Notes under the pieces: model-generated
Databases searched by the model: none
Told to the model about the DNA's origin: nothing
What the model saw: only the letters and a program-made list of their open reading frames with translations
NCBI RefSeq assembly: GCF_018417535.1
Contig: NZ_CP070979.1
Location: 1,255,568-1,319,567, forward strand
Length of the DNA: 64,000 bases
DNA from: Burkholderia pyrrocinia
Lineage (GTDB): Bacteria; Pseudomonadota; Gammaproteobacteria; Burkholderiales; Burkholderiaceae
Direction: 5' to 3'
Made by a program: the position numbers and the translations under genes
Shown here: in pieces, positions 40,133-61,733 of the stretch
How positions within the stretch are numbered: position 1 is the first letter of the stretch
Layout: every line of letters starts with the position of its first letter

Positions 40133-40168
40133 CCGGCTGACGGTCGGGACGCAGGAGGAGACAGGATT

Positions 40169-41842: not shown

Positions 41843-41884
41843 CGCATCAACGCGCCTGCGTGCGCGAACGAACCGGAGCAGACG

Positions 41885-43078
41885 ATGAGCAATGCAGCGA
41901 AAGAAGTCGTGGTGGTGAGCGGTGTCCGTACCGCGATCGGTGATTTCGGCGGCAGCCTGAAGGATTTCTCGCCGACCGACCTCGGTGCGAAGGTCGTGCG
42001 CGAAGTGCTGTCGCGTGCGAACGTGCCGGGCGACGCGGTCGGGCATGTCGTGTTCGGTCACGTCGTGAACACGGAACCGAAGGACATGTATCTCGCGCGC
42101 GTCGCGGCGATCGACGGCGGCGTTGCGCAGCACGCGCCGGCGCTGACCGTGAACCGCCTGTGCGGCTCGGGCCTGCAGGCGATCGTGTCGGCCGCGCAGA
42201 CGATCATGCTCGGCGATGCCGACGTCGCGATCGGCGGCGGTTCGGAGAACATGAGCCGCGCGCCGTACACCGTGCCGGCCGCGCGCTTCGGCCAGCGCAT
42301 GGGCGACGGCAAGCTCGTCGACATGATGCTCGGCGCGCTGCACGACCCGTTCCAGACGATCCACATGGGCGTGACGGCCGAGAACGTCGCACGCAAGTAC
42401 GGCATCTCGCGCGATGCGCAGGATGCGCTCGCGCTCGAATCGCATCGTCGCGCGGCGCGCGCGATCGCGGAAGGGCGCTTCAAGGATCAGATCCTGCCGA
42501 TCGCGATTCGCACGAAGAAGGGCGAGGTGGCGTTCGATTCCGACGAGCACGTGCGTCACGACGCGAGCGCGGACGATTTCACGAAGCTGCGCCCGGTGTT
42601 CGCGAAGGAGAACGGCACCGTGACGGCCGGCAATGCATCGGGCATCAACGATGCGGCCGCGGCCGTGCTGATGATGAGCGCGGATGCCGCGCGGGCGCAG
42701 GGCGTGAAGCCGCTCGCACGTCTCGTCGCGTATGCGCACGCGGGCGTCGATCCGGCGTACATGGGCATCGGCCCCGTGCCGGCCACGCAGAAGGCGCTCG
42801 AACGTGCGGGCCTGACGATCGCCGATCTCGACGTGATCGAGGCGAACGAGGCGTTCGCCGCGCAGGCCTGCGCGGTCACGCAGGAGCTTGGCCTCGATCC
42901 CGCGAAGGTCAACCCGAACGGGTCGGGCATCTCGCTCGGTCACCCGATCGGTGCGACCGGCGCGCTGATCACGGTCAAGGCGCTGTACGAGCTGAAGCGC
43001 ATCGGCGGGCGCTACGCGCTCGTGACGATGTGTATCGGCGGCGGCCAGGGGATTGCTGCGATCTTCGAGAACATCTGA
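41885..43078 (+). CDS. Acetyl-CoA acetyltransferase (thiolase)
   Basis: A 397-residue thiolase that cleaves 3-ketoacyl-CoA or joins two acetyl-CoA. The nucleophilic Cys lies in [11 protein letters not shown] near 90, the active-site His in GHPIGATGA near 354 and the second Cys in [10 protein letters not shown] near 384. Overall family length. In this operon it should perform the last beta-oxidation step, after the hydroxyacyl-CoA dehydrogenase encoded downstream; a role in acetoacetyl-CoA formation is also possible. Confidence 0.93.
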
Positions 43079-43116
43079 TAATCGAACGCTCAGCACCCGA
43101 ACACACAGGAAATTTC

Positions 43117-43971
43117 ATGGCCATCGAAATCGTCGGCGTCGTGGGCGCCGGAACCATGGGCAACGGCATTGCGCAGACCGCCGCCGTTGCGGGACTCAAC
43201 GTCGTGATGATCGACGTCAGCGATGCCGCGCTCGACAAGGGCATCGCGACGCTGAAGGGCAGCCTCGAGCGGCTCGTGTCGAAGGACAAGCTCGACGCAG
43301 CTACGCGCGACGCGGCGCTGGCGCGCATCACGACGTCGACCGACTATGCGAAGCTTGCGTCGGCCGACATCGTGATCGAAGCCGCGACCGAGAACGTCGA
43401 GCTGAAGGGCCGCATCCTGAAGCAGATCGAGGCCGTTGCGCGCCCCGACGCGATCATCGCGACCAACACGTCGTCGATCTCGATCACCGCGCTCGCAGCG
43501 CCGCTCGCCGATCCGGCGCGCTTCGTCGGCATGCACTTCTTCAACCCGGTGCCGCTGATGCCGCTCGTCGAGATCATCCGCGGGCTGCAGACGAGCGATG
43601 AGACCGCATCGGCCGTGCGCGCGCTCACCGAGCGTTTCGACAAGTCGCCGATCGGCGTGCGCAACTCGCCGGGCTTCGTCGTGAACCGGATTCTCGTGCC
43701 GATGATCAACGAGGCGTTCTTCGTGCTGGCCGAGGGCATCGCGTCGGCCGAGGAGATCGACGCGGGGATGAAGCTCGGCGCGAACCACCCGATCGGGCCG
43801 CTCGCGCTGGCCGACCTCGTGGGCCTCGACGTGTGCCTCGCGGTGATGGACGTGTTCGTGAAGGACTTCGGCGATCCGAAGTATCGGGCGTGCCCGCTGC
43901 TGCGCGAGATGGTGTCGGCAGGGCGGCTCGGGAGGAAGACGGGGCGCGGGGTGTACGACTACAGCAAGTAA
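43117..43971 (+). CDS. 3-hydroxyacyl-CoA (3-hydroxybutyryl-CoA) dehydrogenase
   Basis: A 284-residue NAD(P)-dependent dehydrogenase. The cofactor-binding [14 protein letters not shown] lies near 6-19, the family motif [15 protein letters not shown] near 140-154 and the C-terminal domain near [16 protein letters not shown] segment around 190. Single-domain proteins of this length are usually 3-hydroxybutyryl-CoA dehydrogenases. It starts 38 bases after the thiolase stop and completes the beta-oxidation set. The gene converges with tssA, which ends 65 bases away. Confidence 0.92.
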
Positions 43972-44036
43972 GCGGCACACCATGCCACTTCGCGCGGCCG
44001 CGTGCGTTGTGCGGTGCAATCTTGTTTTCTGGTCGG

Positions 44037-45140
44037 TCACGAACCGTCGTCGTCTTCCCATTGCGCCAGAAGCTCGGCCGGAATTGCCTTGACGACTTCG
44101 GCGTAGCGTTTGCCGACGAACTGTTCGGCGCGTTTGAGTAACACCGGAATCGGGCTGCTCGGTTCGTGATGTTCGAACCATGCCCGCGCGGCTCGAATCG
44201 TTGCAAGCGCCGAGTCCCGGTCGGACGGCATGGACTTATTTTGAGCCGGGGCACATTCAGGATCGCTCGCCGATACAGAATTCGCCGGCGCGGTCAGCGT
44301 TACCGCGTCGTCTTGCAAAGATGTGTCGGGCATCGCGGTCGGAGCGGGAATCGTATCGGGCGGTTCGGCCGATACGGCCTGCGTGGGCGTGCCTAATCTG
44401 TCGAGCAGTCGCGTCAGCATCGAAAGGTCTGGCTGGTGGAATTCGAGATGACTGTTGCACCACGCGTTGATCGTGGCGAGATGGGCGATCGTATCGTCGA
44501 TGCCTTCGATCGTTGCGGGGTGCTGCGTGTGCAGATCCTGCAACTGCTGGATGACGGATTCGGGCGCGAGCGCATCGGCCGGACGCGGATGCGCGAAGGC
44601 GCGTTCGACGTCGCGCACCTGCAGGCGGGTAACGGTCGACTTCACCAGTACGATTTCCCGGACATCGGCCAGCAACCCTTCGGGGTCGGATAGCGCTTGC
44701 AATGCGTTCATTCGCATTTCCAGCGCCGCGTCGCGATCGTTATCGGTGCTCGTCTGCGGATGGATATCGTCCGGAAAGGCTTGCACCCACGCAGCCAGCA
44801 CCGCGGTTCCCTCTGCCAGGCCCACGACACCACCGAGACGTACGCGGCAACGTGTATACAGCACGGCGACACGCAGGTCCTTCGTGCGCATCATGAGCCG
44901 CCGACAATCCCGTTCGATCTCGCTCCAGTTGAGCGGATCGGGCGCGCCCACGAACGCACCGTACTGTACGTCCTGTTTGGGGGCAACTCGGGAGAACAGC
45001 ACGACGAAATCGTGGTCGTATTCGAGGTCCGGGCCACAGAGCAAGTCATCGCTTACGGGCGTGAGCCAGTCGAAATGCGGCACATTCGCGGCGGATGTCC
45101 GGGCCGGTTTGCCGGGCGCGGCGGATTGCTTCTTGCTCAT
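44037..45140 (-). CDS. tssA: T6SS cap/baseplate protein TssA
   Basis: A 367-residue protein with the ImpA N-terminal domain (DWLTPVSDDLLCGPDLEYD near 25-43, CRVRLGGVVGLAEG near 98-111). The C-terminal ~60 residues (DRDSALATIRAARAWFEHHEPSSPIPVLLKRA, shown here in part: ARAWFEHHEPSSPIPVLL) form the region that binds sheath and baseplate. TssA primes sheath assembly. It is the last gene of the minus-strand operon, 2 bases after tssG. It is the short class without the extra C-terminal domain. Confidence 0.93.
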   Translation of the reverse strand: MSKKQSAAPGKPARTSAANVPHFDWLTPVSDDLLCGPDLEYDHDFVVLFSRVAPKQDVQYGAFVGAPDPLNWSEIERDCRRLMMRTKDLRVAVLYTRCRVRLGGVVGLAEGTAVLAAWVQAFPDDIHPQTSTDNDRDAALEMRMNALQALSDPEGLLADVREIVLVKSTVTRLQVRDVERAFAHPRPADALAPESVIQQLQDLHTQHPATIEGIDDTIAHLATINAWCNSHLEFHQPDLSMLTRLLDRLGTPTQAVSAEPPDTIPAPTAMPDTSLQDDAVTLTAPANSVSASDPECAPAQNKSMPSDRDSALATIRAARAWFEHHEPSSPIPVLLKRAEQFVGKRYAEVVKAIPAELLAQWEDDDGS

Positions 45141-45142
45141 GG

Positions 45143-46210
45143 TCAGTTCTTGAGATCAGTGGCACGGCGATCGAAATGCCGCACGTAACGTTCGGGCTCG
45201 AATCGCATGCCGGTAATGGGCTTATGCGGGGACGGGCGACCGAGCCACCCGGACCAGCCCATGCGCTGCCGGCCGCCCATAACCGCAGGCGGAGCACTCT
45301 CTGGCTTGATACGCAACTCAAGCTCCCATCCCAACTCGTAGCCGACGAACGCCCGTACCCACTCGACGAGCCGAGGCAGATCCTCGCCCTGCGGCGTGAA
45401 GCGTAGGTAGGCGTCGAGATCGACCGGACCGATCACAATGCGAAAGCGATGCTGTCGATCCGGGGCGACGCGGCCGAGCATTGCACCTTGTCCCATTGTC
45501 GCCGTCGCTCCAGGACGACCCATGCGGCCGAGATCGGCGGGATCGATCTCGATCCAGTGAAACACGTTCTCCTCGATCGCGACCGGCACGCCGAAGTAAC
45601 GTTCGAGCGTGGCGCGTAGTCCGTCCGGATTGCGGGCTTCGCGCACGAGGTGCGCGGTGGCGGCGAGACGCGCGTGCGAGGGCAGGGGGCGCCGACTGAT
45701 TTCGCCGACGTCTTGCCCGCCGAGGCTCGCGATGTAAAACGAAAACCGCTCGTTGTCCTTTCGGTCAAGTCCGGCTGTCGACTGGGACGAAGCCCACGCG
45801 CGATAGAGCAGCGTGAAGAAGCGGTGATGGAAGAGGTCAAGAAAATCAGCCGTTGTCGTATCTCGCCGGCTGTCCTCGCGATCCTTCGCGATCTCGGTCA
45901 CGTGGATCGGCAGCGGGCCGTTGGGGCCGAGCATCCCGAGGCCGAACAGTCGCACCTTCAATCGCCCATCGGCTTCCTGCGCGTTTGCAACTTCGCGCGG
46001 CGCAAACGCAAGGCTCGCTTGCTGGCCGAGCCGGAACGGCTCCGAGCGCGGCCGACGTGCGGTGCCGATCGGATCGATCGCCGCGTTCGCGCCGATACGT
46101 CGTAACAGCGACAGGAATCCGAAACGCCACGGCTCGGCCTGCAAGTGTTCGAGCAGCTCTGGCGACAGCGTGCTGTCGCGTAGCAGAACCGGCAGCGTCG
46201 CGCGCTTCAT
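45143..46210 (-). CDS. tssG: T6SS baseplate protein TssG
   Basis: A 355-residue protein of the ImpH/VasB family. It opens with the characteristic EPWRFGFLSLLRRIGANA and has the typical central HRFFTLLYRAWA and late ELRIKPESAPPAVMGG. TssG joins TssF, TssE and TssK in the baseplate wedge. I use the ATG at 46210, which overlaps the tssF stop by one base (TGATG). Confidence 0.93.
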   Translation of the reverse strand: MKRATLPVLLRDSTLSPELLEHLQAEPWRFGFLSLLRRIGANAAIDPIGTARRPRSEPFRLGQQASLAFAPREVANAQEADGRLKVRLFGLGMLGPNGPLPIHVTEIAKDREDSRRDTTTADFLDLFHHRFFTLLYRAWASSQSTAGLDRKDNERFSFYIASLGGQDVGEISRRPLPSHARLAATAHLVREARNPDGLRATLERYFGVPVAIEENVFHWIEIDPADLGRMGRPGATATMGQGAMLGRVAPDRQHRFRIVIGPVDLDAYLRFTPQGEDLPRLVEWVRAFVGYELGWELELRIKPESAPPAVMGGRQRMGWSGWLGRPSPHKPITGMRFEPERYVRHFDRRATDLKN

Positions 46211-48099
46211 CACAGTACTCCGCGCGTGCCGGTGCGCACGGGCCAGCGGGCAATGCGGCCACGCTGCATCGAATGCAGCTCGGTGTGCGTAAAGCTGTTG
46301 ATCGAGACGTGCCGTGCGAGCCAGTGCTCGAGGATCGTTCCGAAGAGATAGGGGCTCATGCCAGAGAAGCCGGTTTCATCCACCGTCAGCGCGCACTCGA
46401 TGCCGCGCCCGAACGTCATCGGGCCGGTCCCCGGCAGCTTGCGCGTCACCGGGCGTGTCTTGACGCCGACAAGGCTTTCGACTTGCCGGTTTTGCGCGGA
46501 GTCGCCTTCCGCGAGGTACAGACGCAGCAGATCGCGAAGCCCCTGACCGCCTTCGCGGTGATCGAGATCGTCTAGCGGCAGATAGTTGAAGTTGAGTTGG
46601 CGGATCAGGCGCCACGCCATTTCCCGCTCGGCATACGGCGGCAGCGGCGGACTCGGCGGCCGGATGAGGCCGATGCTTTCCACCGGCGCGGACTCCGCGG
46701 TCTCCAGATCGCGTACGCCGTTGCGCGGCACGAGCGTGGCCAGATCGCGGTTGGTCAGGAGCGCGTCGACTGACAGGAAGCGGAGGTTTTCGGCATAAGG
46801 TGCCTCGTTCTGGTCGACGAGCGAGAGAAACACTTCGGTGCCGACGTAGGGCGTACGCGTACCGTAACGACGCGCGGAATTGGACACGAGGCGCTGTTCA
46901 CGCCGAGTCGAGAAGTAACGTCCGTGATTACCCTCGTCGTTGTTCAGTGTCTGGTAGAGCGAACGGAATTCAAGCTCTTCGGATGTGAGGGCCACCTGAC
47001 CGTACACGGTCTCCACCGAAAACACCTCGTAGTCGAGCGGCGCCTGTCGCGCTGGCACGAGGTGAAACTCGGTCTCGCGCGGCGAGATTTCTATTCTGTC
47101 GGTGTGTTTGCTGAAGAGATTGATGACGGGCGTGCAGAAAAGCGCAAAGCGAGAAGCGTCAACGAGGTTTGCGAGCTGCCCTGGCACCCGGTCGAGCAGG
47201 ACGACGATTTCGGCTTCCCGGCCACGAATCCGCGAGAGCCCTTCGGCGAGGCCGTTCAACGCAAAGAACCAGAACCGTCCCGGGCATGCAAAGTACTCGT
47301 GCAGCAGGTTGTGGCCGTGAAATTTCGCCCAGCTGAGCGGAAGCAGATTTTGGTCGATGCGCAACCCCTCGTGCTCTACCGCGCTCTGAGTAACGGCGGC
47401 AAGCGGACGACCGGGTACGCCGAATTCACCGGGTACGCCAATCACGGACGCGATTCCGCCTGCGTGCAACAGTTCGAAGAGATGCGAGGCGACCTGCTCA
47501 TCACCTGCCAGGTGGACGGGAAGCCGATCGAGCCCCTTCAGATCGGCGATATGCACGTCGCCGGTCGTGGCGAGCTTGATCCGCAACGCGCCTCGTACTT
47601 GCGTATCCGGTGGCGTATAACGTTCGAGCGCAGGAATGTCGGGCGGAATACCGGTCAGGCGTGCGTCGGTGATCGTGAGCGGCCACAGCGTCACGTCCTG
47701 TCCACTCGTAAACTGGCACGCGGTTCTTTCTCCATCAGGAACCCGCGCAGTGAACGATGTGCCGCGCGCGATGCGATACCCTTCGGTGAGTTTGCCTTCA
47801 GTCCGGCCCGGATACAGGCGTGCGACGGCAATCGAGGGAGTGGGCGCGACATAGTTCGGGTAGATAACTTCGAGCAACCGCTGCGTGAAGCGCGGGAACT
47901 CGGCGTCAAGCTTGATCTGCATGCGTGCGGCCATGAAGCTGAACGACTCGATCAGGCGCTCGACGTAGGGGTCGGCCACTTCGCCTGCCTGCATCCCGAG
48001 TCGACGCGCGATCTTCGGGTGTGCATGCGCGAATTCAGCGGCCAGCTCGCGCATGTAGATGAGTTCCTGGTTGTAGTAGTCGAGCAGTCGCGGGTCCAT
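46210..48099 (-). CDS. tssF: T6SS baseplate protein TssF
   Basis: A 629-residue protein of the ImpG/VasA family. Its start MDPRLLDYYNQELIYMRELA and the following FAHAHPKIARRLGM are almost diagnostic; the YPNYVAPTPS and RGREAEIVVLL segments follow. With TssG it forms the baseplate core. The ATG at 48099 is the family start; upstream sequence in frame is unrelated. There are 38 bases between tssE and this gene. Confidence 0.94.
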   Translation of the reverse strand: MDPRLLDYYNQELIYMRELAAEFAHAHPKIARRLGMQAGEVADPYVERLIESFSFMAARMQIKLDAEFPRFTQRLLEVIYPNYVAPTPSIAVARLYPGRTEGKLTEGYRIARGTSFTARVPDGERTACQFTSGQDVTLWPLTITDARLTGIPPDIPALERYTPPDTQVRGALRIKLATTGDVHIADLKGLDRLPVHLAGDEQVASHLFELLHAGGIASVIGVPGEFGVPGRPLAAVTQSAVEHEGLRIDQNLLPLSWAKFHGHNLLHEYFACPGRFWFFALNGLAEGLSRIRGREAEIVVLLDRVPGQLANLVDASRFALFCTPVINLFSKHTDRIEISPRETEFHLVPARQAPLDYEVFSVETVYGQVALTSEELEFRSLYQTLNNDEGNHGRYFSTRREQRLVSNSARRYGTRTPYVGTEVFLSLVDQNEAPYAENLRFLSVDALLTNRDLATLVPRNGVRDLETAESAPVESIGLIRPPSPPLPPYAEREMAWRLIRQLNFNYLPLDDLDHREGGQGLRDLLRLYLAEGDSAQNRQVESLVGVKTRPVTRKLPGTGPMTFGRGIECALTVDETGFSGMSPYLFGTILEHWLARHVSINSFTHTELHSMQRGRIARWPVRTGTRGVL

Positions 48100-48137
48100 C
48101 GGAGTGGTCACTTTGTTGTCGTTGTGCTGCGCGGGGC

Positions 48138-48695
48138 TCAGCTGGTGCGCATGCCGGTGATGCGAATCTCGCTCGTTTCGAGATCCAGCGAGCTCTGCAC
48201 CATGAATTCGAGCGGGTACGGGTCCATGTGAATCAGTCCGCGGACTTCGAACGCGAGGACATTGTGATGCTCGCCGGCCTCGATGGCATGGCGAGGCGAT
48301 ACCACCAGCGAATCCGGAATCAAGCGCGGTTCGAAATCGGTAATGGCCTGCCGGATCATGCGTTCGACGTCGTTCCACTGACGTAACGCGATAAAGGCCC
48401 CCGCGAGCGGCGGCACGCCGAAGTTGACGGTCGAGGCGGCCGCATGCGGATGGCGCGCGCGATCGATCTGATCCTCGATGCTGGTTGTGTTCAGCAAATA
48501 GGCGAGGTCGCGCTGCACGATGTCACGCATCTGCTTGCGCGTGACCGTGTATTCCTCCGGGGCTTCGACGTGTCGATGCGGCGCGTCGTCGCGCAGCCGG
48601 TCGAGCAGGGTTGGCATCAGGTGCGCGTTGGCCCGGCGGGGTGTGCGGACAGCCAGCGTATCCGGGGCGGATGACGGTCTCTTGCGATCAGTCAT
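48138..48695 (-). CDS. tssE: T6SS baseplate protein TssE (gp25-like)
   Basis: A 185-residue lysozyme-related gp25 homologue. The HLMPTLLDRLRDD start near 28-40, DLAYLLNTTS near 76-85 and the late PLEFMVQSSLDLETSEIRI are typical. The first ~25 residues are a variable extension. TssE starts sheath polymerisation on the baseplate. Its start overlaps the end of tagJ by 8 bases. Confidence 0.9.
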   Translation of the reverse strand: MTDRKRPSSAPDTLAVRTPRRANAHLMPTLLDRLRDDAPHRHVEAPEEYTVTRKQMRDIVQRDLAYLLNTTSIEDQIDRARHPHAAASTVNFGVPPLAGAFIALRQWNDVERMIRQAITDFEPRLIPDSLVVSPRHAIEAGEHHNVLAFEVRGLIHMDPYPLEFMVQSSLDLETSEIRITGMRTS

Positions 48696-49539
48696 CGACT
48701 CGCTCCCCGGCGGCGGCGCCGTCAGTGACATGCGTGCCGAATTCCGCATTCGCCAATTCGAAGAGACTGAAGTCGCCTTGATCAGTGGTCCAGGTTTTCT
48801 GGCCGAGACCGATAACGCCGGTTCGTCCATGCTCGTGCCAAACGGTCGTGCGCCCGAGACGCACCGCGTCGTCGCCGCTCTCCGACCCCGGATATCGTGC
48901 AGGCATGAAGCCACGGACGATGCTTCCGTCGACGAGCGTGAGCGTACATGGCGCCCATACCAGATCGACCAGTTTTGTCGGCAGTGACACGCGCCATGCA
49001 GCCAGATCGGCGAACGGCACCCAGCAATAGTGCCCGGCCGTGATGACCTCGCAGAACGGGCCGAAACGGGAGTCGCTATCGACGATCCAGTTCGCAGTTC
49101 CTTGCGGGACGCGCACCGGAACGGTCGACGCGGCATCGAGTGAAGCCTCACGCGCGTCGTCGGCCTGCTCGTTCTGTTCTCCGGCAGCCAGGCGCAGCGC
49201 ATTCAGCAGACCCTCGACTCCCGCTGGCGGCTCGAGCACGAAGCCCGGGCGAGCGCGTCCCTCGACGACCTGCTTGCGCCAGCTTTCAGCCCGGATCAGG
49301 TCGCGATACACCTGTGCGGCTTGCGTCTGGCCGGGTTCGAGCTTTGCCCACATCTGCAATTGCTGGATCGCTCGCGGCCATTCGCCCGTTATGCACATCA
49401 ACTGGAACAGCGCCCACCGATGGGACGCATTGGCCGGCTGCGTGCGCAGACGCGTCGAGATGCACTCGATCCGTTCGCCGACGGGGGGCTCGCTCAAACG
49501 TTGGTTTTGGGGCGAGTCGGAGGCGGTGCGCCGGATCAT
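48688..49539 (-). CDS. tagJ: T6SS accessory protein TagJ (ImpE/SciE family)
   Basis: A 283-residue protein of the ImpE family with an N-terminal helical-repeat half (PANASHRWALFQLMCITGEW near 35-54, tetratricopeptide-like) and a C-terminal ImpE domain (CTLTLVDGSIVRGFMPARYP). In some T6SSs TagJ binds the TssB N-terminus and affects sheath recycling by ClpV. This is relevant because the local tssB is 3'-truncated. Its start overlaps the upstream tagK-like gene by ATGA. Confidence 0.88.
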   Translation of the reverse strand: MIRRTASDSPQNQRLSEPPVGERIECISTRLRTQPANASHRWALFQLMCITGEWPRAIQQLQMWAKLEPGQTQAAQVYRDLIRAESWRKQVVEGRARPGFVLEPPAGVEGLLNALRLAAGEQNEQADDAREASLDAASTVPVRVPQGTANWIVDSDSRFGPFCEVITAGHYCWVPFADLAAWRVSLPTKLVDLVWAPCTLTLVDGSIVRGFMPARYPGSESGDDAVRLGRTTVWHEHGRTGVIGLGQKTWTTDQGDFSLFELANAEFGTHVTDGAAAGERVDD

Positions 49540-50174: not shown

Positions 50175-50718
50175 CTGGGTGTCCGATGACAGGAATTTCG
50201 CATTTTAACCACGAGTCCGGGCGGTTCGTCTATCGTCACGGAGATAATCGACTTTTCGAGATTGGTTGTGAATATTTTTGAGATTGATCGTCAAATGTTA
50301 AATGCAGTAACAGTTGGCATGAAAATGATATCAAAATCAATTGGCTGCATATTTGTGAAAAATTGCAAATAAGTGGGATATCGAAAATATCTCAAAATAA
50401 CAATGACTTGGATTATCTTGATCTGAGTCTGTCGGCGTGGGGCCGCTCGCGGGAAAGTGCGTGATTTGGGGACGGGGCGATGCGATGGATTCCGGGTTGG
50501 GCAGCTTGATTTCGGTAATTGTGGTCAATGGAATGGATTGACGGAAATTGAATTTCGTGTCGATAATGCCGCTCCGATTCGAATTGGCCGATTGAATCGG
50601 ATCCAAGAGAGAGCGATGGATCGAGTATTTCCAGCGATATCAGTCGAAGCATCTACGTAGCAGTCCTGATATCAAGGGAATGATGCTCGGGGCATCGCGG
50701 CCACCAACTAAGAACATC
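50175..50718. promoter_or_regulatory. AT-rich divergent promoter region of the T6SS operons
   Basis: About 540 bases, strikingly AT-rich at 50250-50420, between the leftward and rightward T6SS operons. It should hold both promoters. TTGGCATG at 50314-50321 and TTGGCTGCATATTTGTG at 50341-50357 partly resemble the -24/-12 elements of sigma-54 promoters, but neither has a good -12 GC. A GATAT-CGAAA-ATATC hairpin lies at 50377-50391. AT-rich DNA here would suit H-NS/MvaT-type silencing. Confidence 0.5.
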
Positions 50719-53400
50719 ATGACCATTTCGCGCCAAGCACTGTTCGGCAAGCTCGGGGTCCAGCTTTACCGGAGCATCGAGTCGGCGACGAATTTCTGCA
50801 AGTTGCGCGGGAATCCGTTCGTCGAGCTCATCCACTGGCTGCATCAAATGCAGCAGCAGCCGGACGGCGACCTTCAGCGGATCGTTCGTCACGCCGGCAT
50901 TGATCGCGACACGCTCGAGCGTGACTTCGCGCGGGCGCTGGCTGCGTTGCCGGCGGGCGCAAGTTCGATCAGCGATTTTTCATGGCACATCGAATCGGCA
51001 ATCGAGCGCGCGTGGGTGCTTGCGACGCTCGAACACGGTGACCGCCGCGTGCGCGGTGCGTGGTTGATCGCAGCACTCGTGTCCACGCCTGACTTGCGGC
51101 GTGTGCTGCTTGGCATCTCCCCCGCGTTCGGCAAAATCCCGGTCGACGGCCTCGCCGATGGGCTTCCGGCCTGGATCGGCGGTTCGCCGGAAGCGGCCGA
51201 TGATCCGTACGACCGCAGCGAATTGTTGCCTGCCACGCCGGGCGAGGCGTCCAGCGCGATGCCGGGCGCGCCGAAGAGCGGCTCGCTTGAGCAGTACTGC
51301 ACGGATCTGACGGCACTCGCCCGCGCGGGCGAAATCGATCCGGTCATCGGCCGCGAGCTCGAGATCCGCACGATGATCGACGTGTTGCTGCGCCGGCGGC
51401 AGAACAACCCGCTGGTGACCGGCGAAGCCGGCGTCGGCAAGACGGCCGTGGTCGAAGGTCTCGCCCGCGCGATCGCGTCGGGCAACGTGCCGCCGAAGCT
51501 GGCCGACGTGCGGTTGCTTAGCCTCGATGTCGGAGCGCTGCTAGCCGGTGCCAGCATGAAGGGTGAGTTCGAGGCCCGCTTGAAGGGTCTACTCGAAGCG
51601 GCCGCGAAGTCGCCTGCCCCCGTGATCCTGTTCATCGACGAGATCCATACGCTGATCGGCGCGGGCGGCCAAGCGGGCACGGGCGACGCCGCCAACCTCC
51701 TGAAGCCGGCCCTCGCGCGCGGCACGATCCGGACGATCGGCGCGACGACCTGGGCCGAGTACAAGCGGCATATCGAAAAGGATCCCGCATTGACCCGGCG
51801 TTTTCAGGTGCTGCAGGTCGCGGAGCCGTCCGAGGTCGCTGCCATCGATATGGTGCGGGGGCTCGCGCAAACGTTTTCGGCGCATCACGGTGTGGTGGTG
51901 CGTGACGATGCGATCCGGGGTGCGGTGACGTTGTCGCACCGCTACATTCCGGCACGCCAGTTGCCGGACAAGGCGATCAGCCTGCTCGATACCGCCTGTG
52001 CGCGGGTCGCGCTGTCGCAACATGCAACGCCGCGCGAGCTAGACGACGTACGCCAGCGCCTCGCGGCCGCGCGCACGGAAGAAGCGCTGCTCGTGCAGGA
52101 GGCCCGCGTCGGTCTGGACGCGGACAAGGCACTAGCCAATGTGCGCGTGCGCATCGACACGCTGGCAACGGAGGAGGCCGCGGTCGACACGCGTTGGCGC
52201 GAACAGGCCGCCGCCGCGCAGGCGCTGCTCGCCGCACGCGGGGGCGCGGCAGGATCACCCGATGATTCGCCGATGCCCGTTGAACGGCTGCGCGAGCTCG
52301 AGCGCGCGCTGGCTGACCTTCAGGGCGAGGCACCGCTCGTGTTTCCGGAAGTCGACGAGGCGATCGTCGCGGAGATCGTTTCGGACTGGACCGGTATCCC
52401 GGTAGGTCGCATGGTCACGGACGAGGTGGCCGCCGTGCGCCGACTACACGAAACGCTGGACGCGCGCGTGATCGGCCAGGCGGATGCGCTGCGCCTGATC
52501 GGCGAGCGCGTGCAGACCGCGCGGGCCGGCCTGACCGACCCGAAGAAGCCGCTCGGCGTGTTCCTGCTCGCGGGGCCGTCGGGTGTGGGCAAGACAGAAA
52601 CAGCACTGGCACTGGCCGAGGCGCTGTACGGCGGCGAACAAAACCTGATCACGATCAACATGAGCGAGTATCAGGAAGCCCACACCGTGTCGGGCCTGAA
52701 AGGGGCGCCGCCCGGGTATGTCGGTTATGGCGAGGGCGGGGTGCTGACCGAAGCGGTACGCCGCCGTCCGTACGCGGTCGTGCTGCTCGACGAGATCGAA
52801 AAGGCCCATCGCGACGTGCATGAAATGTTCTTCCAGGTGTTCGACAAGGGCTACATGGAGGACGGCGACGGTCGCCACATCGATTTCCGCAACACCACCA
52901 TCCTGCTGACCAGCAATGTCGGCTCCGATCTGACCGCGGGCCTGTGCGCCGATCCAATGTTGTCGCCCGATATGGACGGGTTGCGGGATGCGCTCACCCC
53001 CGAATTGCTGAAAGCCTTTCCGGCTGCCTTTCTCGGACGAGTGACGGTCGTGCCGTACCGGCCGCTGGCCGACGCCGTGCTTGCTCGCATCGTCCGTCTG
53101 CATCTGGGGCGCGTGGCGAAGCGCATGGCCGACAGTCATGAAATCGCGCTTACCTATGACGAGGCGTTGGTCGACTACATCGTCGGCCGTTGCCTCGTAC
53201 AGGAGACCGGCGCGCGAGTCCTCATCGGTTTTATCGAACAACACGTGCTGCCTCGCCTGTCGGCCCTTTGGCTCGACGCGTTCACGTCGAACGCCGCGCT
53301 TGCACGTATTGGAATCGGTGTCGCCGATCCAGCCGCAGCGCCTGTGCAGGCGTTGACGTTCGATGCATTGCCATCCCGTTTGGACGAAGCGCTTTGCTGA
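50719..53400 (+). CDS. tssH: T6SS sheath-disassembly ATPase TssH (ClpV)
   Basis: An 893-residue AAA+ unfoldase that takes apart contracted sheaths for reuse. It has the ClpV-specific N-terminal domain (about 1-150, FGKLGVQLYRSIESATNFCK), ATPase domain 1 with Walker A GEAGVGKT near 235 and Walker B VILFIDEIHTL, and ATPase domain 2 with GPSGVGKTET near 618 and VVLLDEIEKAHRDV. The ATG at 50719 (MTISRQALFGKL) matches the family start; two in-frame upstream ATG codons at 50680 are less likely. It appears intact. Confidence 0.94.
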   Translation: MTISRQALFGKLGVQLYRSIESATNFCKLRGNPFVELIHWLHQMQQQPDGDLQRIVRHAGIDRDTLERDFARALAALPAGASSISDFSWHIESAIERAWVLATLEHGDRRVRGAWLIAALVSTPDLRRVLLGISPAFGKIPVDGLADGLPAWIGGSPEAADDPYDRSELLPATPGEASSAMPGAPKSGSLEQYCTDLTALARAGEIDPVIGRELEIRTMIDVLLRRRQNNPLVTGEAGVGKTAVVEGLARAIASGNVPPKLADVRLLSLDVGALLAGASMKGEFEARLKGLLEAAAKSPAPVILFIDEIHTLIGAGGQAGTGDAANLLKPALARGTIRTIGATTWAEYKRHIEKDPALTRRFQVLQVAEPSEVAAIDMVRGLAQTFSAHHGVVVRDDAIRGAVTLSHRYIPARQLPDKAISLLDTACARVALSQHATPRELDDVRQRLAAARTEEALLVQEARVGLDADKALANVRVRIDTLATEEAAVDTRWREQAAAAQALLAARGGAAGSPDDSPMPVERLRELERALADLQGEAPLVFPEVDEAIVAEIVSDWTGIPVGRMVTDEVAAVRRLHETLDARVIGQADALRLIGERVQTARAGLTDPKKPLGVFLLAGPSGVGKTETALALAEALYGGEQNLITINMSEYQEAHTVSGLKGAPPGYVGYGEGGVLTEAVRRRPYAVVLLDEIEKAHRDVHEMFFQVFDKGYMEDGDGRHIDFRNTTILLTSNVGSDLTAGLCADPMLSPDMDGLRDALTPELLKAFPAAFLGRVTVVPYRPLADAVLARIVRLHLGRVAKRMADSHEIALTYDEALVDYIVGRCLVQETGARVLIGFIEQHVLPRLSALWLDAFTSNAALARIGIGVADPAAAPVQALTFDALPSRLDEALC

Positions 53401-53437
53401 GCACAGTCCACTTACCACCGTCCAGGAGAACCTGTTC

Positions 53438-53944
53438 ATGTCCGCTTCCAGCAGTTCGCAGAAATTCATCGCGCGCAATCGTGCGCCGCGCGTGCAAATC
53501 GAGTACGACGTCGAGGTCTACGGCTCGGAGAAAAAGGTCGAGCTGCCGTTCGTGATGGGCGTGCTGGCCGACCTGTCCGGCAAGCATCCGGTCGAGCCGC
53601 TGCCGGCTGTATCGGATCGGCGGTTCCTCGACATCGATATCGACAATTTCGACGAACGCATGAAGGCGATCCGTCCTCGCGTCGCGTTTGCCGTGCCGAA
53701 CACGCTGACGGGTGAAGGTCAGATGATGGTCGACATGACCTTCGAGAGCATCGAGGACTTCTCGCCGGCCGCCATCGCTCGGGAAGTCGAGCCGCTGCGC
53801 CGGCTGCTCGAAGCGCGTACGCAGCTTGCGAACCTGCAGACCTACATGGATGGCAAGTCGGGTGCCGAAGCGCTCGTTAGGTGCCGTTGGATTGAAGGGT
53901 ATTTACCCGACGCGCGACTATGTGCGGCAGATGTGGGAATCTGA
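53438..53944 (+). pseudogene. tssB: T6SS sheath protein TssB, 3' end lost by fusion to vgrG
   Basis: The first ~147 residues are a normal TssB/VipA small sheath subunit: RVQIEYDVEVYGSEKKVELP, LADLSGKHPVEPLP, FDERMKAIRPRVAFAVP and QLANLQTYMDGKSGAEAL are typical. From about 53875 the reading frame runs out of frame into vgrG sequence, giving an unrelated tail of about 20 residues. The normal C-terminal helix, which contacts TssC and ClpV, is missing. CAGGAGAA precedes the ATG. tssC, which normally follows, is not present. Confidence 0.85.
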
Positions 53945-56015
53945 TTTTGAATTCCTGAGCCGGTTATGGTGCGAGTGGGGCATCTACTACTTCATGGATG
54001 GCTCGACGTTGTTGCTGTGCGACTCGCCTGGGTCACACAAGCCGCACGGAAACATGTATGACACGATTTCTTATCACGCCCCCGCGGGGAAGCGAGTCGA
54101 CGAAGAGCATATCCATCGCCTGACGGTGTCGCGCCGGCTTACCGCGGGAGCGGTGAGTTTGATCGATTACGATTCGACCCAATCTCGTGCAAATCTGTCG
54201 ACGGTAGTCGATCGCCCGAGTGATATTCAATTTAGCAATGCAGAGCACTATGCATGGGGCGATTACTCGCAGCCGTTGGCAGGGACGATGGGGCTGTCGG
54301 GAATGCCGAACAGTTGTGTTCAGGAGGCGCGGTATTTGGCAGGTGTGCGTGTCGACGCAGAGCGTTGCAGGAGCTTGCGTGCGAAGGGGCGCGGCAACCT
54401 GTGCGGAATAGCGACGGGCCACACTTTTCACCTCGAAGGGTATCCGAAGACGCGCACCAATGCGGAATATCTGGTGGTCGCCGCGACGATCGACATTCGT
54501 AACAACGATGAAGCCACGGGCGGCGAACCGTACCACTGCGTAACGGATTTTGTGCTGCAGCCCGCTACGACGTTTTTTCGTAGCCGCCCGAAGCGCAAGC
54601 CGCCATGCGGATCGGAAACGGCCGTCGTGGTGGGGCCTGCTGACCAGCCGATATGGGTCGATGGCTATGCGCGCGTGAAAGTCCAGTTCGTGTGGGACCG
54701 GCTCGGTTCGCGTGACGAGAATTCGAGCTGCTGGATGCGAGTGTCATCGCCGTGGCAGGGGAGCGGCTTCGGGTTCGTGGCGTTGCCGCGCATCGGCCAG
54801 GAGGTGACGGTGAGCTATCACGAAGGGGATCCGGACAAGCCGTATGTGTCGGATCGTCAGGTGAACCAGTTCAACCAGCCACCGTGGGTATTGCCGAAGA
54901 ATCAGGCGTTGATGGGCTGGTGCAGCATGAGCCTGACTGGCAGTCAGGCCAACCAGGTGGTGGTTGACGACACGCCTGGAAAACTTCAGGTCCAGATTTC
55001 GAGCGATTACGCGCAGTCGAGGCTGGTGCTTGGGTACAACACCCGCATCGAAGGGGGCGCGGGACGACAGCAGGAGCGTGGCGTCGGGTTCGAGATGGCG
55101 ACGGAAGCGCACGGGGTGATGCGGGCAAACCGGGGGATGCTGGTGACGGCCGAGGCGCGGGAAGGGGCAAGCGCACCGGCGAAGGACATGGCAGAGACCG
55201 TGGCTCGCTTGACCCAGGCGAGGGAACTGCATGAGGAGATGGCGCATCTGGCGCAGCGGCACAACGCGCAGGAAGCAGGGGTGAGCCAGCATGATGCGAC
55301 GCAGGCGATCAAGACGCAGAACGACGCGATAAAAGGCGGTGTCGCCGATCCGAGCGAGAACCTGTTTCCGGAAATGAGTCGCCCTGACATCGTGTTGGCG
55401 AGCGCGTCGGGTATCGGCATGAGCGCGGCGCAAGGCGTGCATATTGCAAGCCAGGGGGACCACGCGGTGACGGCGGCACGAGATGTGAGCGTGTCGTCCG
55501 GCAGATCCTTGATCGGCTCGATCAAGGGAGCGATTTCGTTGTTTGCCGCGAAGCTGGGTATCCGGCTGGTCGCGGCGCAGGGCAAGGTCGAGATTCAGGC
55601 GCAAGACGATGCGATGGCGCTCGCGGCGTTGAAGGATCTGACGGTTACCAGCCTGGGCGGAAAAATCGTGCTGAACGCGTCGAAGGAGATCTGGATCGGC
55701 GTAGGCGGCTCGTTCATTCGCATTACCGCCGACGGCATCGTAAACGGGACCACCGGGCAGATCCAGGAGAAGTGCGCGAAGTGGAGCAAGGCGGGAGCGG
55801 AATCGATGCGAATCCCGTTTTCCGACAGCTTCGGCAAGATCTACGAAGGATTCTTCAAGCTGCATTGGGAAGGTACCAATCAGATTGCGCCGTATCACCC
55901 GTACCGCATCACGCGTGCCGATGGCAGTCGGATCGAGGGCATGACCAATGCCGAGGGGGAAACCACACTGCATCTGGCCGAATACAGCGAATCCTTGAAA
56001 ATCGAACTTCTGTGA
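53893..56015 (+). pseudogene. vgrG: T6SS spike protein VgrG, 5' end lost
   Basis: The frame carries VgrG sequence from GIYPTRDYVRQMWESDF onward: the end of the gp27-like domain, the gp5 OB-fold region (WVDGYARVKVQFVWDRLG), GSGFGFVALPRIGQEV and a DUF2345 region ending near HLVSIKGKVEIQ-like QGKVEIQAQDDAM. The first ~170 residues of a normal VgrG are missing; the frame is open upstream only inside tssB (to 53826). The C-terminus carries an extra transthyretin-like extension (about 55836-56015) that often recruits effectors. It may be expressed as a fragment. The next gene starts 7 bases after its stop. Confidence 0.85.
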
Positions 56016-56022
56016 CTCACCG

Positions 56023-57969
56023 ATGACGAGCCAACGACCCACCAAGAAAACGTCCGCACCACCACCTGAACTGAAGCTGAAGTCAGGCGGCTCAGTGTGC
56101 AAGGTCGAACTGCCGCAGCGCCCCCTGCGCATTTACTTCCAGACCTATCCCGGCGTGAGCGGTAGCGAGGCAGACCGTGCGTTATCGGGTATCCCGTACA
56201 AACTGCGTATTCCCGGTCAGCCCGAAATCGAGGGCAAGACGGAGTCGAACGGGCAGATTCTGCTGCCGGGCCTGCAGCCCGATATGACGGGGGAGCTCCA
56301 GATCCTGGGAACCATGATCCACCTGCGCCCGCGAGACTACAGCGCCGACGAAACCACCGACGGCAGAACCACCATGGGCATCCAAGGCGCCAAGCGTCGC
56401 CTGATGATCATGGGTTACTACGACAAGCCGTATCGTTTCAACGGTTTGAGTCAAACACCCGACGACAAACTGGATCATGTCGAAATCGAGGAGGCGATTC
56501 TGCAATTCCAGGTGGACAACGGGATGGTGCCAAACGGGGAGATCGAACGCCATGAGATCGTCGGCGGCAGGATCGATACCAGCCGGCAATATGGTTTCCA
56601 CCTTGATCTGTCCAGTTCGACGATCAAGCAGTTCCATCCCGACTTCGTCGCGAAGCTGGCGGCGGGTGGTGGCAGCGCCCCGCCGGACACGATGGTGCCA
56701 TGCGCCGTGCCGCCATCAACGCCAGCCAAGGGAAAATCGCCGGCCAAGGCGAGTTCGGCCGCGGCGCCTCAACCGCTCGTTCGCGAGATCTACGAGGGGC
56801 ATCGATTCGTTCCCGTTCGCTTTGTTCGCCAGAATCCGGGGCGTTTCAATCCACGGCAACCGGAACTGGACGAGCGTGGTTTTGTGGATGGCCGTGCCGG
56901 CCCTGTTGTGAGCCTAGTGGCGGGGGAAACCATTCAGGTGCGGATGGTGCGCGTGCATGTGGCGAGTGGTGTGCCGCTGTTTCTCAAGAGCAGCGATGAA
57001 ACCGTGGTGAAGGTTCGGCTCCTTGCTGATGATGTTGTTGAGCTCACGGGTGTTGCAAGGACAGGGCGGTCCATCGCAGTTGTCGATCCGCGAAACTCGA
57101 CGGTTGAGGTGCGCTATGGAAGTTCTGATGGCCCGCTACTGCACCGGTTGTTTGTGGAGCACTACGATCCAATTACAGTTGCGGTGGCAGTTCATCTGGT
57201 ATCCATCGGGCAGAAAGGACATCCTGAAATTCCACGCGTTCCCCCTTCGTTGCAGCGTTCGACTATTGAGCCGATCTTCGACAGCATCAACGACATCTGG
57301 CGTACAGCCGGTATTCGCTTTCAAGTCACACAATGGCTGGACGACACCATTGATTTGAATCAGGCGGGGGTGATGACCGTCCAAGGCGCTATCAATGAGT
57401 TTAACGACGTGACCGGTTTGAACCGCATAGCCGCACATCTGAATATGTATGTCGTGGACTCGATGATTGGAGGCGGTATTGGTTGGGGAGCGAGGAATAC
57501 GGCATTGGTGGCTGCTGAGCAAATGCATGGTGCCAGGCCTTCTAGGCCAGACCAATTGGTGCAGACGTTTGCTCACGAGATCGGTCATTTTCTTGGTCTG
57601 TGGCACCCGGGCACGGCGAATTCGGAAGGCGATAACCTGCCATTTCCACCTCAGCATCCAGAAGACCATGCCATGCAGGACTACTGGTCTCGTCGAAGCT
57701 TGATGTATGTCTATACCAGTCTAGGGTTGGTTAACCCTCTGGCGCCTGATGTCAGGCAGCGCGGTCGTCAGTTGGATGTTGGAAATGGATGGTTCGTAGG
57801 CGGAAAAATGCTCTGCTGCAAGGTGGTTCCAAAAATTGTATCAAGTGTCAGGAAGTCAGAGATTGCTACCGCGCGCGGTATTGCGATGCTCAATCAGCTC
57901 ATTGAAACAAGGACGACAGCATGGAAATCACGAATCGACGGCGAAACCGGAAATGGCCTGTTTGCTTGA
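56023..57969 (+). CDS. Candidate T6SS metzincin-type metallopeptidase effector
   Basis: A 648-residue protein directly downstream of vgrG. Residues about 33-105 resemble a small transthyretin/Ig-like beta domain, about 125-185 a peptidoglycan-binding domain (IEEAILQFQVDNGMVPNGEI), and about 415-600 a zinc peptidase: HEIGHFLGLWH at 518-528 is the full HExxHxxGxxH zinc signature, and SLMYVYT at 559-565 is a candidate Met-turn. I infer a T6SS-delivered toxin acting in the periplasm, either on the cell wall or on a peptide or protein. No signal peptide. Codon use and GC are lower than in the rest of the operon toward the end. The immunity-like gene overlaps its 3' end by 49 bases. Confidence 0.72.
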   Translation: MTSQRPTKKTSAPPPELKLKSGGSVCKVELPQRPLRIYFQTYPGVSGSEADRALSGIPYKLRIPGQPEIEGKTESNGQILLPGLQPDMTGELQILGTMIHLRPRDYSADETTDGRTTMGIQGAKRRLMIMGYYDKPYRFNGLSQTPDDKLDHVEIEEAILQFQVDNGMVPNGEIERHEIVGGRIDTSRQYGFHLDLSSSTIKQFHPDFVAKLAAGGGSAPPDTMVPCAVPPSTPAKGKSPAKASSAAAPQPLVREIYEGHRFVPVRFVRQNPGRFNPRQPELDERGFVDGRAGPVVSLVAGETIQVRMVRVHVASGVPLFLKSSDETVVKVRLLADDVVELTGVARTGRSIAVVDPRNSTVEVRYGSSDGPLLHRLFVEHYDPITVAVAVHLVSIGQKGHPEIPRVPPSLQRSTIEPIFDSINDIWRTAGIRFQVTQWLDDTIDLNQAGVMTVQGAINEFNDVTGLNRIAAHLNMYVVDSMIGGGIGWGARNTALVAAEQMHGARPSRPDQLVQTFAHEIGHFLGLWHPGTANSEGDNLPFPPQHPEDHAMQDYWSRRSLMYVYTSLGLVNPLAPDVRQRGRQLDVGNGWFVGGKMLCCKVVPKIVSSVRKSEIATARGIAMLNQLIETRTTAWKSRIDGETGNGLFA

Positions 57970-58895
57970 TTTTTTTGTTGGGAGCGACGGGTGCCGCATT
58001 GGCTCAAGGTGTTCCAGCGTCGACCACATCTGTCTCGGAGAGTAAGACCATGCCAACACTGACAAACCTGATCAGGCAAGAGAAATGGAATGAAGCGATT
58101 CAGTACTGCCGAAAATATAAGGACGCAGCCATTCCGGAAATCAATTTAGTTCTTGATACGCCAAAGCTAGATTCTGCAACGGCAAATTTCGTGTATCACT
58201 GCTTGCGTCAGATTCGCACGTCTGCGTCCGCGATACTGATGGCAAAGGATTTTCACGGGGGGTGGCGGGAAACCGTGTATGGCCTGATCGAGAACCCGCG
58301 CCCGGAGGCCTACCCCATTCTCAAAGAAAGGTTGAAGTCACCGCAGGACGAGAGGGATAAGGATCTTTTGCTGACTATGGCGCAAATGAATGTGCCTATT
58401 GAGCAGCGAGTTGCAGACATCAAACCATATCTTGAAGCCAAATACTATGAAACTCGTCAGGCGGCCTCTCTTAGTCTTGCGCTGTTGGATGATCCAGGTG
58501 GCATGGAGCTAGTGGTATATGAGCTTGGCACGGAATTTCGGCAGTCTAAACAGGACTTTCTACGCGTCTTCTATGACTTTCAAGCCTGGCGCATCCCGAA
58601 GTTCGTACCGATACTGATCCCGGTGCTCAATGATCCGATGCCGCTCGATGACATCGGCATTCGCATGTACCTGCCGGGTGGTGGCGAGCAATCGATGACT
58701 CCAGAGGAAGAGCGCTATAGCCGTGCTCGCGACTACGCGCTGAACATCATCGCGAAAACGCTCAATCTCGACTTGCCATTCAAGATCGAGGATCAGACCA
58801 CGTACACGAAGGAGCAACGTGACCTGGTCAAGCAGAAGTTGCGGGATCTCGGCTACACCGTGACGGACGAGCCGTATCCGGTCACGCCTGCCTGA
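57921..58895 (+). CDS. Candidate periplasmic immunity protein, copy 1
   Basis: A 324-residue protein with an N-terminal signal peptide (VCLIFLLGATGAALA, cleavage before QGV) and a mostly helical mature part with HEAT-like repeats (IKPYLEAKYYETRQAASLSL, ending SLALLDDPGG). It starts inside the end of the effector gene, 49 bases before its stop, and is followed 39 bases later by a near copy. A secreted protein directly downstream of a periplasm-acting toxin suggests a cognate immunity protein. The last 111 residues differ from copy 2 at only three positions. Confidence 0.6.
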   Translation: MEITNRRRNRKWPVCLIFLLGATGAALAQGVPASTTSVSESKTMPTLTNLIRQEKWNEAIQYCRKYKDAAIPEINLVLDTPKLDSATANFVYHCLRQIRTSASAILMAKDFHGGWRETVYGLIENPRPEAYPILKERLKSPQDERDKDLLLTMAQMNVPIEQRVADIKPYLEAKYYETRQAASLSLALLDDPGGMELVVYELGTEFRQSKQDFLRVFYDFQAWRIPKFVPILIPVLNDPMPLDDIGIRMYLPGGGEQSMTPEEERYSRARDYALNIIAKTLNLDLPFKIEDQTTYTKEQRDLVKQKLRDLGYTVTDEPYPVTPA

Positions 58896-58934
58896 GCGCA
58901 TTTTCAATCAGATCATTCCAATAACGTCAACGGC

Positions 58935-59909
58935 ATGGAACTCACGCATCGACACCGAAGTTTACGATGGCTTGTTTGCTTGATTTTGTCGCTGGGAGCG
59001 ACGGGTGCCGCATTGGCTCAAGGTGTTCCAGCGTCAACCACATCTGTCTCGGAAAGCAAGGCCATGCCGACACTGGCGAACCTGATCAAGCAAGAGAAAT
59101 GGGATGATGCGCTCCAGTATTGCCGCGACAAAAAGGATGCAGCTATTCCAGAAATCAATAGCTTGCTTGCCACGAAAAAATTGGATGACGCGACGCAAGA
59201 CTTCATGTTTCACTGCTTACGTCAGATTCGCACGACGGCATCTGCAATACGAATGGCAAAAAGTTTTCATGGCGGATGGCGGGAGTCAGTATACGGCCTG
59301 ATTGAGAACCCGCGTCCGGAGGCTTATCCTATTCTCAAAGCGCGATTGAAGTCACCGCAAGAAGAAGAAGACAAAGATCTTCTGCTGACTATGGCGCAGA
59401 TGGATGTGCCGGTTGAGCAACGCGTTGTCGACATCAAACCATACCTCGAGGCCAAATACTACGGAACACGTCAGGGGGCTGTTCTTAGTCTGGCTCTGCT
59501 GGACGATCCGGACAGCACGGAGCGCATGGTCTATGAACTCGGCACGAAATACCGGCAATCCAAGTCGAATTTCTTGCGTGTCTTCTACGACTTCCGAGCC
59601 TGGCGCATCCCGAAGTTCGTACCGGTACTGATCCCGGTGCTCAATGATCCGATGCCGCTCGATGACATCGGTATTCGCATGTACCTGCCGGGAGGCGGTG
59701 AGCAGTCCATGACTTCAGAGGAAGAGCGCTATAGCCGTGCCCGCGACTACGCGCTGAACATCATTGCGAAAACGCTCAATCTCGACTTGCCATTCAAGAT
59801 CGAGGATCAGACCACGTATACGAAGGAGCAACGTGACCTGGTCAAGCAGAAGCTGCGGGACCTCGGCTACACGGTGACGGACGAGCCGTATCCGGTTACG
59901 CCTGCTTGA
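58935..59909 (+). CDS. Candidate periplasmic immunity protein, copy 2
   Basis: The 324-residue tandem copy of the preceding gene, starting exactly 1014 bases after it, with the same signal peptide type (LILSLGATGAALA) and HEAT-like body. The upstream leader, gene and downstream flank are all repeated, so the whole unit was duplicated. The N-terminal two-thirds has diverged more than the C-terminal third, which may reflect selection or gene conversion. Confidence 0.6.
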   Translation: MELTHRHRSLRWLVCLILSLGATGAALAQGVPASTTSVSESKAMPTLANLIKQEKWDDALQYCRDKKDAAIPEINSLLATKKLDDATQDFMFHCLRQIRTTASAIRMAKSFHGGWRESVYGLIENPRPEAYPILKARLKSPQEEEDKDLLLTMAQMDVPVEQRVVDIKPYLEAKYYGTRQGAVLSLALLDDPDSTERMVYELGTKYRQSKSNFLRVFYDFRAWRIPKFVPVLIPVLNDPMPLDDIGIRMYLPGGGEQSMTSEEERYSRARDYALNIIAKTLNLDLPFKIEDQTTYTKEQRDLVKQKLRDLGYTVTDEPYPVTPA

Positions 59910-60500: not shown

Positions 60501-61733
60501 GTGACGAACGAAACGGACGGACTGGAAAATCCGGACACGCTGGATGGATCGATCCCGTCCGGAGAAATGCCGGAGGACCGGCTGCGCCGCATCCTTGCGG
60601 CGACGAATCCGCTGCTCGAGGCCTCGCGCGTGCTGCTGAGGGCACTGGCCGACATGCCATATTCGCTGCCTTCCAGTGCGGTCGAGCAATTGCGGGAATT
60701 GCTGGGGCAGGAAGTCGATGAGTTTAAAAAGCTGTGCACACAGGCCAATATCCGACGCGACCATATGGTCGGAGCCAGCTATTGCCTGTGTACGGCGCTC
60801 GACGAGGTGGCGATGCGGACCGCCTGTGCACATGATCGAGCGCTGGCGGCGGCATGGGTCCACACGAGCCTGGCAGCGACGTTTCATCGAGATGTCGACG
60901 GCGGTGAAAAGATATACATGCTGATTGGAAGACTCATGTCGGAACCCCGGGAGCACCACGATCTACTGCAAGTCATCTACCGTGTTCTGAGTCTTGGTTT
61001 CGAAGGCCGGTACCGGTTTGAGGCAGGGGGTGCACGCCGTCATGGCGAGATTCGCCGGCACATCTATACCGAGATCATGTCGAGGCGCGAGCCGGTGCCC
61101 CAGGCACTGTCGCCGCACTGGAAGAGCGATGCGCGCAAGCCGCATATGTCGTTCTGGGAGTTTCCCGTATGGATCACGGCCACGGTGCTGTCGGTGGCGC
61201 TGCTTGGCCTGTTCGGCTACTTCAAGTATGAACTGGCGACACGCGGTGTCGGTATCCAGAAACAGATCGCGGACGTCGGCCGCATGACACCGCCACCCGT
61301 GCCGCAGCAACTGCATTTGAAGCAACTGCTCAAAGACGAGATTGCGGCAGGCACGGTCAGCGTGGACGAAGATGCGCGCCACAGCGCGGTGACGTTTCGG
61401 GGCGATGCGATGTTCCAGCCCGGCGGCGTCGCAGTCAAGCCTGCAATGGCGCCGCTCGTCGCGAAGATTGCGGGCGAGATCGTGAAAGTACCAGGCAAAG
61501 TTACTGTCCTGGGTTATACGGACAATCTGCCGATCCGCAGTCGCCAGTTCCCGTCGAACGGCGCACTGTCGGAGGAGCGGGCGACGCAAGTGATGCAGAT
61601 GCTGCAAGCCGCCGGTGTGCCGGCCAACCGTCTTGAAGCGGTTGGCAAGGGCGATGCCGAGCCGATCGGTGACAACCGTACTTCCCAGGGGCGCGCGCAG
61701 AACCGACGTGTCGAAATCGTCGTCGCGCAATAG
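60501..61733 (+). CDS. tssL: T6SS membrane-complex protein TssL with OmpA-like domain
   Basis: A 410-residue inner-membrane protein. The DotU/ImpK cytoplasmic domain covers about 30-220 (LRRILAATNPLLEASRVLL, YCLCTALDEVAM), a membrane segment lies near 220-243, and the C-terminal part is an OmpA/MotB peptidoglycan-binding domain (VLGYTDNLPIRS, LSEERATQVMQML, NRRVEIVVAQ). With TssM and TssJ it forms the envelope-spanning complex. The start is GTG with AAGGA at 60487-60491. tssK, normally just upstream in many clusters, is absent in the window. Confidence 0.93.
   Translation: MTNETDGLENPDTLDGSIPSGEMPEDRLRRILAATNPLLEASRVLLRALADMPYSLPSSAVEQLRELLGQEVDEFKKLCTQANIRRDHMVGASYCLCTALDEVAMRTACAHDRALAAAWVHTSLAATFHRDVDGGEKIYMLIGRLMSEPREHHDLLQVIYRVLSLGFEGRYRFEAGGARRHGEIRRHIYTEIMSRREPVPQALSPHWKSDARKPHMSFWEFPVWITATVLSVALLGLFGYFKYELATRGVGIQKQIADVGRMTPPPVPQQLHLKQLLKDEIAAGTVSVDEDARHSAVTFRGDAMFQPGGVAVKPAMAPLVAKIAGEIVKVPGKVTVLGYTDNLPIRSRQFPSNGALSEERATQVMQMLQAAGVPANRLEAVGKGDAEPIGDNRTSQGRAQNRRVEIVVAQ

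Follow-up and report, generated by a model that had tools for sequence, protein, structure and literature searches.

A type VI secretion system (T6SS) cluster of Burkholderia pyrrocinia lies at the end of a 64,000-nucleotide stretch of assembly GCF_018417535.1 (contig NZ_CP070979.1, positions 1,255,568 to 1,319,567; here the window, G000:C3:1255568-1319567), which is itself the end of contig C3 in a genome of 8.54 Mb and three contigs. It is highly probable that a single deletion of 4,834 bp, running from tssB into vgrG, recently inactivated this cluster, one of five T6SSs in the genome; the four other clusters were kept. The loss is evident at the junction of the two genes, in comparison with the closest relative, and in the set of parts that the cluster lacks.

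The tssB-vgrG junction and the missing segment

The ATG of tssB is at 53438 and opens a frame of 168 residues with its stop at 53942. Residues 1-147 (to 53878) match TssB of G023, the closest relative among the 65 genus genomes searched (own genome included) and a separate species-level genome, and the remaining 21 residues are foreign and out of frame, so that TssB falls short of the G023 protein by 33 of 180 residues, all C-terminal. VgrG reading restarts at 53877, in a frame that differs from that of tssB and at a position that corresponds to residue 171 in G023, whose vgrG has 882 codons. The Pfam T6SS_VipA match in the truncated TssB covers model positions 2-134 of 155, and the Phage_GPD match in the 3′ part of vgrG starts only at model position 109 of 305, which fits a 5′ truncation. 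A first-pass annotation of this DNA had reported an abrupt end of TssB near 53875 followed in another frame by VgrG without about 170 residues, and the coordinates bear this out. The features at the junction are:

53438..53944, plus strand: truncated tssB; codons 1-147 native, the next 21 out of frame up to the stop at 53942; T6SS_VipA
53876..53879, no strand: junction left by the deletion, 4 bp of microhomology; 4,834 bp of the G023 arrangement missing
53877..56015, plus strand: vgrG without its first 170 codons; Pfam GPD from position 109, DUF2345, T6SS_Vgr

When window positions 53300-54300 were used as a query against the 65 genomes, bases 1-580 were found at C18:13588-14167 of G023 and bases 577-999 at C18:18998-19420, on a single contig, and thus with the two halves 4,834 bp apart. 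Alignment of window 36001-64000 with C18:1-40000 (blastn) was collinear on both sides; identity was 96.6% in the 14.2 kb left of the junction and 94.2% in the 10.1 kb right of it. Between the breakpoints G023 carries the 3′ end of tssB, tssC (500 aa), hcp (161 aa), tssJ (191 aa), tssK (448 aa), and the 5′ end of vgrG. Pfam confirms TssC, TssJ, and TssK; Hcp was identified through its counterpart, in that its best match in the B. pyrrocinia genome (L020:10838-11320) coincides with a Pfam T6SS_HCP match at C3:142852-143244. The G023 cluster thus shares its gene order with the window cluster, collinear and at 94-97% identity on both sides, and differs in keeping the tssB-tssC-hcp-tssJ-tssK-vgrG stretch. 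Because the junction halves stand 4,834 bp apart on one G023 contig with tssC, hcp, tssJ, and tssK between them, the sequence comparison shows a single deletion of that length between tssB and vgrG, in agreement with the deletion first proposed. The absence of tssC and hcp from the window, also proposed at first pass, holds as well, and the loss is larger than was then stated, since tssJ and tssK are gone too.

An identical 4 bp is present at both breakpoints (L017, 14164-14167 and 18998-19001) and in single copy in the window, as expected of microhomology. When 200,000 random breakpoint pairs were simulated in the region, 2.2% of them shared at least 4 bp. A longer breakpoint repeat was considered and rejected, as G023 has no shared word of at least 8 bp within 100 bp either side. 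The comparison with G023 shows one 4,834-bp loss sealed at the shared 4 bp; the process behind it, inferred from this pattern, fits a microhomology-mediated or slippage deletion.

Among the 65 genus genomes, the junction as a contiguous match was found only in the genome itself, and none of the relatives has it as a normal arrangement; the comparison with relatives suggested at first pass instead gives the intact order in the closest of them, G023. With the G023 tssB-tssK sequence as query, and with a single match over at least 99% of the query, at no less than 79% identity, counted as uninterrupted, the stretch was uninterrupted in 25 of 65 genomes (26 loci, G048 having two and G023 itself being counted). 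In four (G019, G027, G035, and G040) it was fragmented or ran into the end of a contig, and the other 35 had some match to it, with none near full length among the matches listed. At the deletion site, the B. pyrrocinia genome retains only query bases 1-442, at 99% identity. In all 11 short loci from relatives (L006-L016), and in 9/9 of the named loci looked at (L025-L033, out of 80), tssB is followed by tssC.

The deleted piece is not present elsewhere in the genome. Its best match in the same genome has 80% identity and lies in a sister cluster on the same replicon, and translocation was rejected on the ground that no match is better than this. The genome has 5 TssB matches (one being the truncated copy), 4 TssC, 4 Hcp, 4 TssK, and 5 TssJ, and those to TssC, Hcp, TssK, and TssJ all lie outside the window; the four other T6SS clusters retain tssB, tssC, hcp, and tssK. 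A search of a plasmid collection gave 5 records; query coverage was 26% at most, and no record spanned the junction. The stretch from vgrG through the adjoining effector gene had, besides the window, 8 short matches of at most 649 bases elsewhere, the two longest at 65-70% identity.

Consequence and age of the loss

In this cluster the sheath pair is incomplete, with TssB lacking its C-terminal residues and tssC absent; the tube protein Hcp, the baseplate adaptor TssK, and the lipoprotein TssJ are missing, the genome's copies all lying elsewhere; and the VgrG spike has lost the first 170 of its 882 codons. TssB, TssC, Hcp, and TssJ are needed for a T6SS. The deletion removed, in one step, the C-terminus of TssB, TssC of the sheath, Hcp of the tube, the outer-membrane lipoprotein TssJ, the adaptor TssK, and the N-terminus of VgrG, and from established T6SS biology a machine without these parts would be unable to assemble. 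Because the removed parts are required, the window cluster is very probably dead. For this consequence a paper on cenocepacia is cited (PMC6612558). At first pass it was held that the system would be inactive unless another T6SS supplied the sheath and tube; the inactivation stands, and the exception is too narrow, as with tssJ and tssK also gone a supply of sheath and tube alone would not be enough.

Of 14 surviving genes or pieces compared with G023, ten align gap-free and full length, and each of the ten is open in the two genomes, at dN/dS of 0-0.52; no value was obtained for the other four (tssF and the open reading frames (ORFs) at 43090, 44037, and 57921), where alignments had gaps or were incomplete. 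Codon changes on the B. pyrrocinia branch numbered 16 nonsynonymous and 49 synonymous, against 27 and 73 on that of G023 (p=0.86, in what is a weak test). This count took in 8 of 9 genes or pieces, with L019 as outgroup except for vgrG and tssL, for which L022 was used; tssM, having no outgroup, was dropped, 403 tssL positions were missing, codons where neither genome agrees with the outgroup were omitted, and the tandem pair described below, the effector gene, and the gene for the TagK-domain protein were outside the count. There is no sign of relaxed selection, which weakly suggests either a loss that is recent on this scale or a remnant still in use. The loss looks recent because the surviving genes are open and without excess protein change, and the remaining genes, including a putative effector and a putative immunity pair, would still be open because the event was recent. 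The first-pass view that the event is recent accordingly gains some support from the open frames and the similar ratios on the two branches, although that support is weak.

Alternative explanations and precedents

Several points weigh against a recent inactivating deletion. The junction occurs in a single genome and is known from its assembly, so that an artefact of assembly or culture has to be considered; the comparison covers one genome per species; the exact deleted sequence is taken from G023, another species-level genome; loci at 79-81% identity among the 25 uninterrupted genomes may be paralogous clusters rather than counterparts; and the absence of decay in the surviving genes (16:49 against 27:73) also fits retained use. 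An assembly misjoin, or a deletion limited to the sequenced culture, is nonetheless quite unlikely. The assembly has only three contigs, all large, and a completeness rating of 100%, the 4 bp common at the junction is too little for a repeat-driven misjoin, and no other part of the assembly contains the deleted DNA. That a reduced type of T6SS normally has this tssB-vgrG junction is of vanishingly small probability and was rejected, being without support and refuted within the 65 genomes searched: 25 of them have tssB-tssK uninterrupted, the full order is present in G023, and the gene frames disagree across the junction.

Another alternative is that the remnant still works as a hybrid and borrows sheath, tube, baseplate adaptor, and lipoprotein from a sister T6SS. 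The most conceivable source of such cross-supply would be the sister cluster at C3:133-145 kb, whose TssB, TssC, and Hcp are 84%, 82%, and 77% identical to the G023 proteins, and the open state and dN/dS values of the surviving comparable genes would be consistent with it. However, TssK and TssJ of the sister cluster are only 65% and 57% identical to those of G023, the truncated VgrG would still be without its N-terminal hub region, and the open frames are equally well explained by recent loss, so that a working hybrid seems most improbable. We give equally little credence to the remnant being a parts donor, with its TssA, E, F, G, H, L, and M and its effector and immunity genes serving a hybrid with the sister T6SS; if true, the deletion would have functionally joined two systems instead of killing one.

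Recent inactivation by deletion is an ordinary kind of gene loss, and the present case is a well-resolved new instance of it at base-pair resolution. In Pseudomonas aeruginosa, 48 of 1960 genomes lack one of the H1-H3 T6SS clusters (PMC11751169), and there likewise one of several T6SSs was lost by deletion with others kept. In those cases whole apparatus clusters are gone, H1 and H3 within deletions of more than 100 kb, whereas the window has a 4.8-kb internal deletion with most of the cluster left. In bee gut bacteria, partial T6SS loss was followed by pseudogenization (PMC8125069); the window cluster resembles the first step of that process, but later decay is not yet visible. A search of one open-access library returned precedents for T6SS loss and, among the papers listed, none reporting this deletion, which does not prove that no report exists. 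The case provides a base-resolved example of a bacterium with multiple T6SSs losing one of them, in which one small deletion takes sheath, tube, baseplate adaptor, and lipoprotein together and leaves putative effector and immunity genes in place. It also indicates that T6SS counts based on tssF or tssH overstate the number of working systems, there being 8 TssF matches in this genome vs 4 TssC.

The surviving cluster and other T6SS-like loci

TssA, E, F, G, H, L, and M are all present in the cluster, TssM as two pieces across the contig ends with the profile scan covering the 5′ piece. The remaining features are:

43090..44181, minus strand: ORF adjoining tssA; no Pfam or NCBIfam match
44037..45140, minus strand: tssA-like (ImpA_N); Pfam PF06812, 4.1e-28
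45143..46213, minus strand: tssG, open; Pfam PF06996; dN/dS 0.135 vs G023
46210..48378, minus strand: tssF, open; Pfam PF05947 from residue 94; longest ORF, true start probably further in
48138..48650, minus strand: tssE (gp25-like); Pfam PF04965; boundaries chosen inside ORF 48138-49202
48688..49539, minus strand: tagJ (ImpE); Pfam PF07024
49536..50174, minus strand: TagK-domain protein; NCBIfam NF033419, 3.9e-39
50680..53400, plus strand: tssH (ClpV ATPase), open; AAA and ClpB domains; collinear with G023
56023..57969, plus strand: putative effector adjoining vgrG, open; weak metzincin-type metallopeptidase match (Pfam Reprolysin_5, 2.9e-05, under cut-off)
57921..58895, plus strand: first of tandem pair; putative immunity protein by position only; no family match
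58935..59909, plus strand: second of tandem pair; 83% identical to the first
60501..61733, plus strand: tssL (DotU plus OmpA); Pfam PF09850 and PF00691
61754..64000, plus strand: tssM, 5′ part; NCBIfam TIGR03348; frame resumes at base 1 of the same contig

The tssM frame ends exactly at the last base of the window, C3 base 1 opens in a 615-codon frame, and C3 base 1 aligns to G023 directly after the window end; the replicon is therefore circular and tssM unbroken. Two DotU/OmpA (TssL-type) genes flank tssM, at window 60501-61733 and at L105:1868-3088. The copies of the tandem pair (57921-59909) are 82-87% identical to the G023 pair, and in all four copies the 3′ third is more conserved while the similarity ahead of it is patchy. 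Such a mosaic suggests that gene conversion, or else selection for diversity, has acted on the pair. Beside the cluster, on the minus strand at 36896-43096, are two ORFs of 443 and 1,615 aa with no Pfam or NCBIfam match.

Elsewhere in the genome, a partial T6SS-like group at C2:2656749-2664336 (L133:4250 onward) has PAAR, TssM (IcmF), TssF, and TssJ with no TssB, TssC, Hcp, or TssK match nearby. Lone tssF genes adjoin vgrG at C2:1692236-1694113 (L134:9237-11114) and C2:2912397-2914264 (L135:9368-11269), both far from any tssB, tssC, hcp, or tssK match; in each case an Rhs-PAAR toxin gene lies 0.5-2 kb past vgrG. The two may be cargo islands equipped with a baseplate component of their own. Of the 65 genus genomes, 13, own included, carry nearly full-length relatives of the lone tssF (at least 1,830 of 1,878 bases, at no less than 67% identity).
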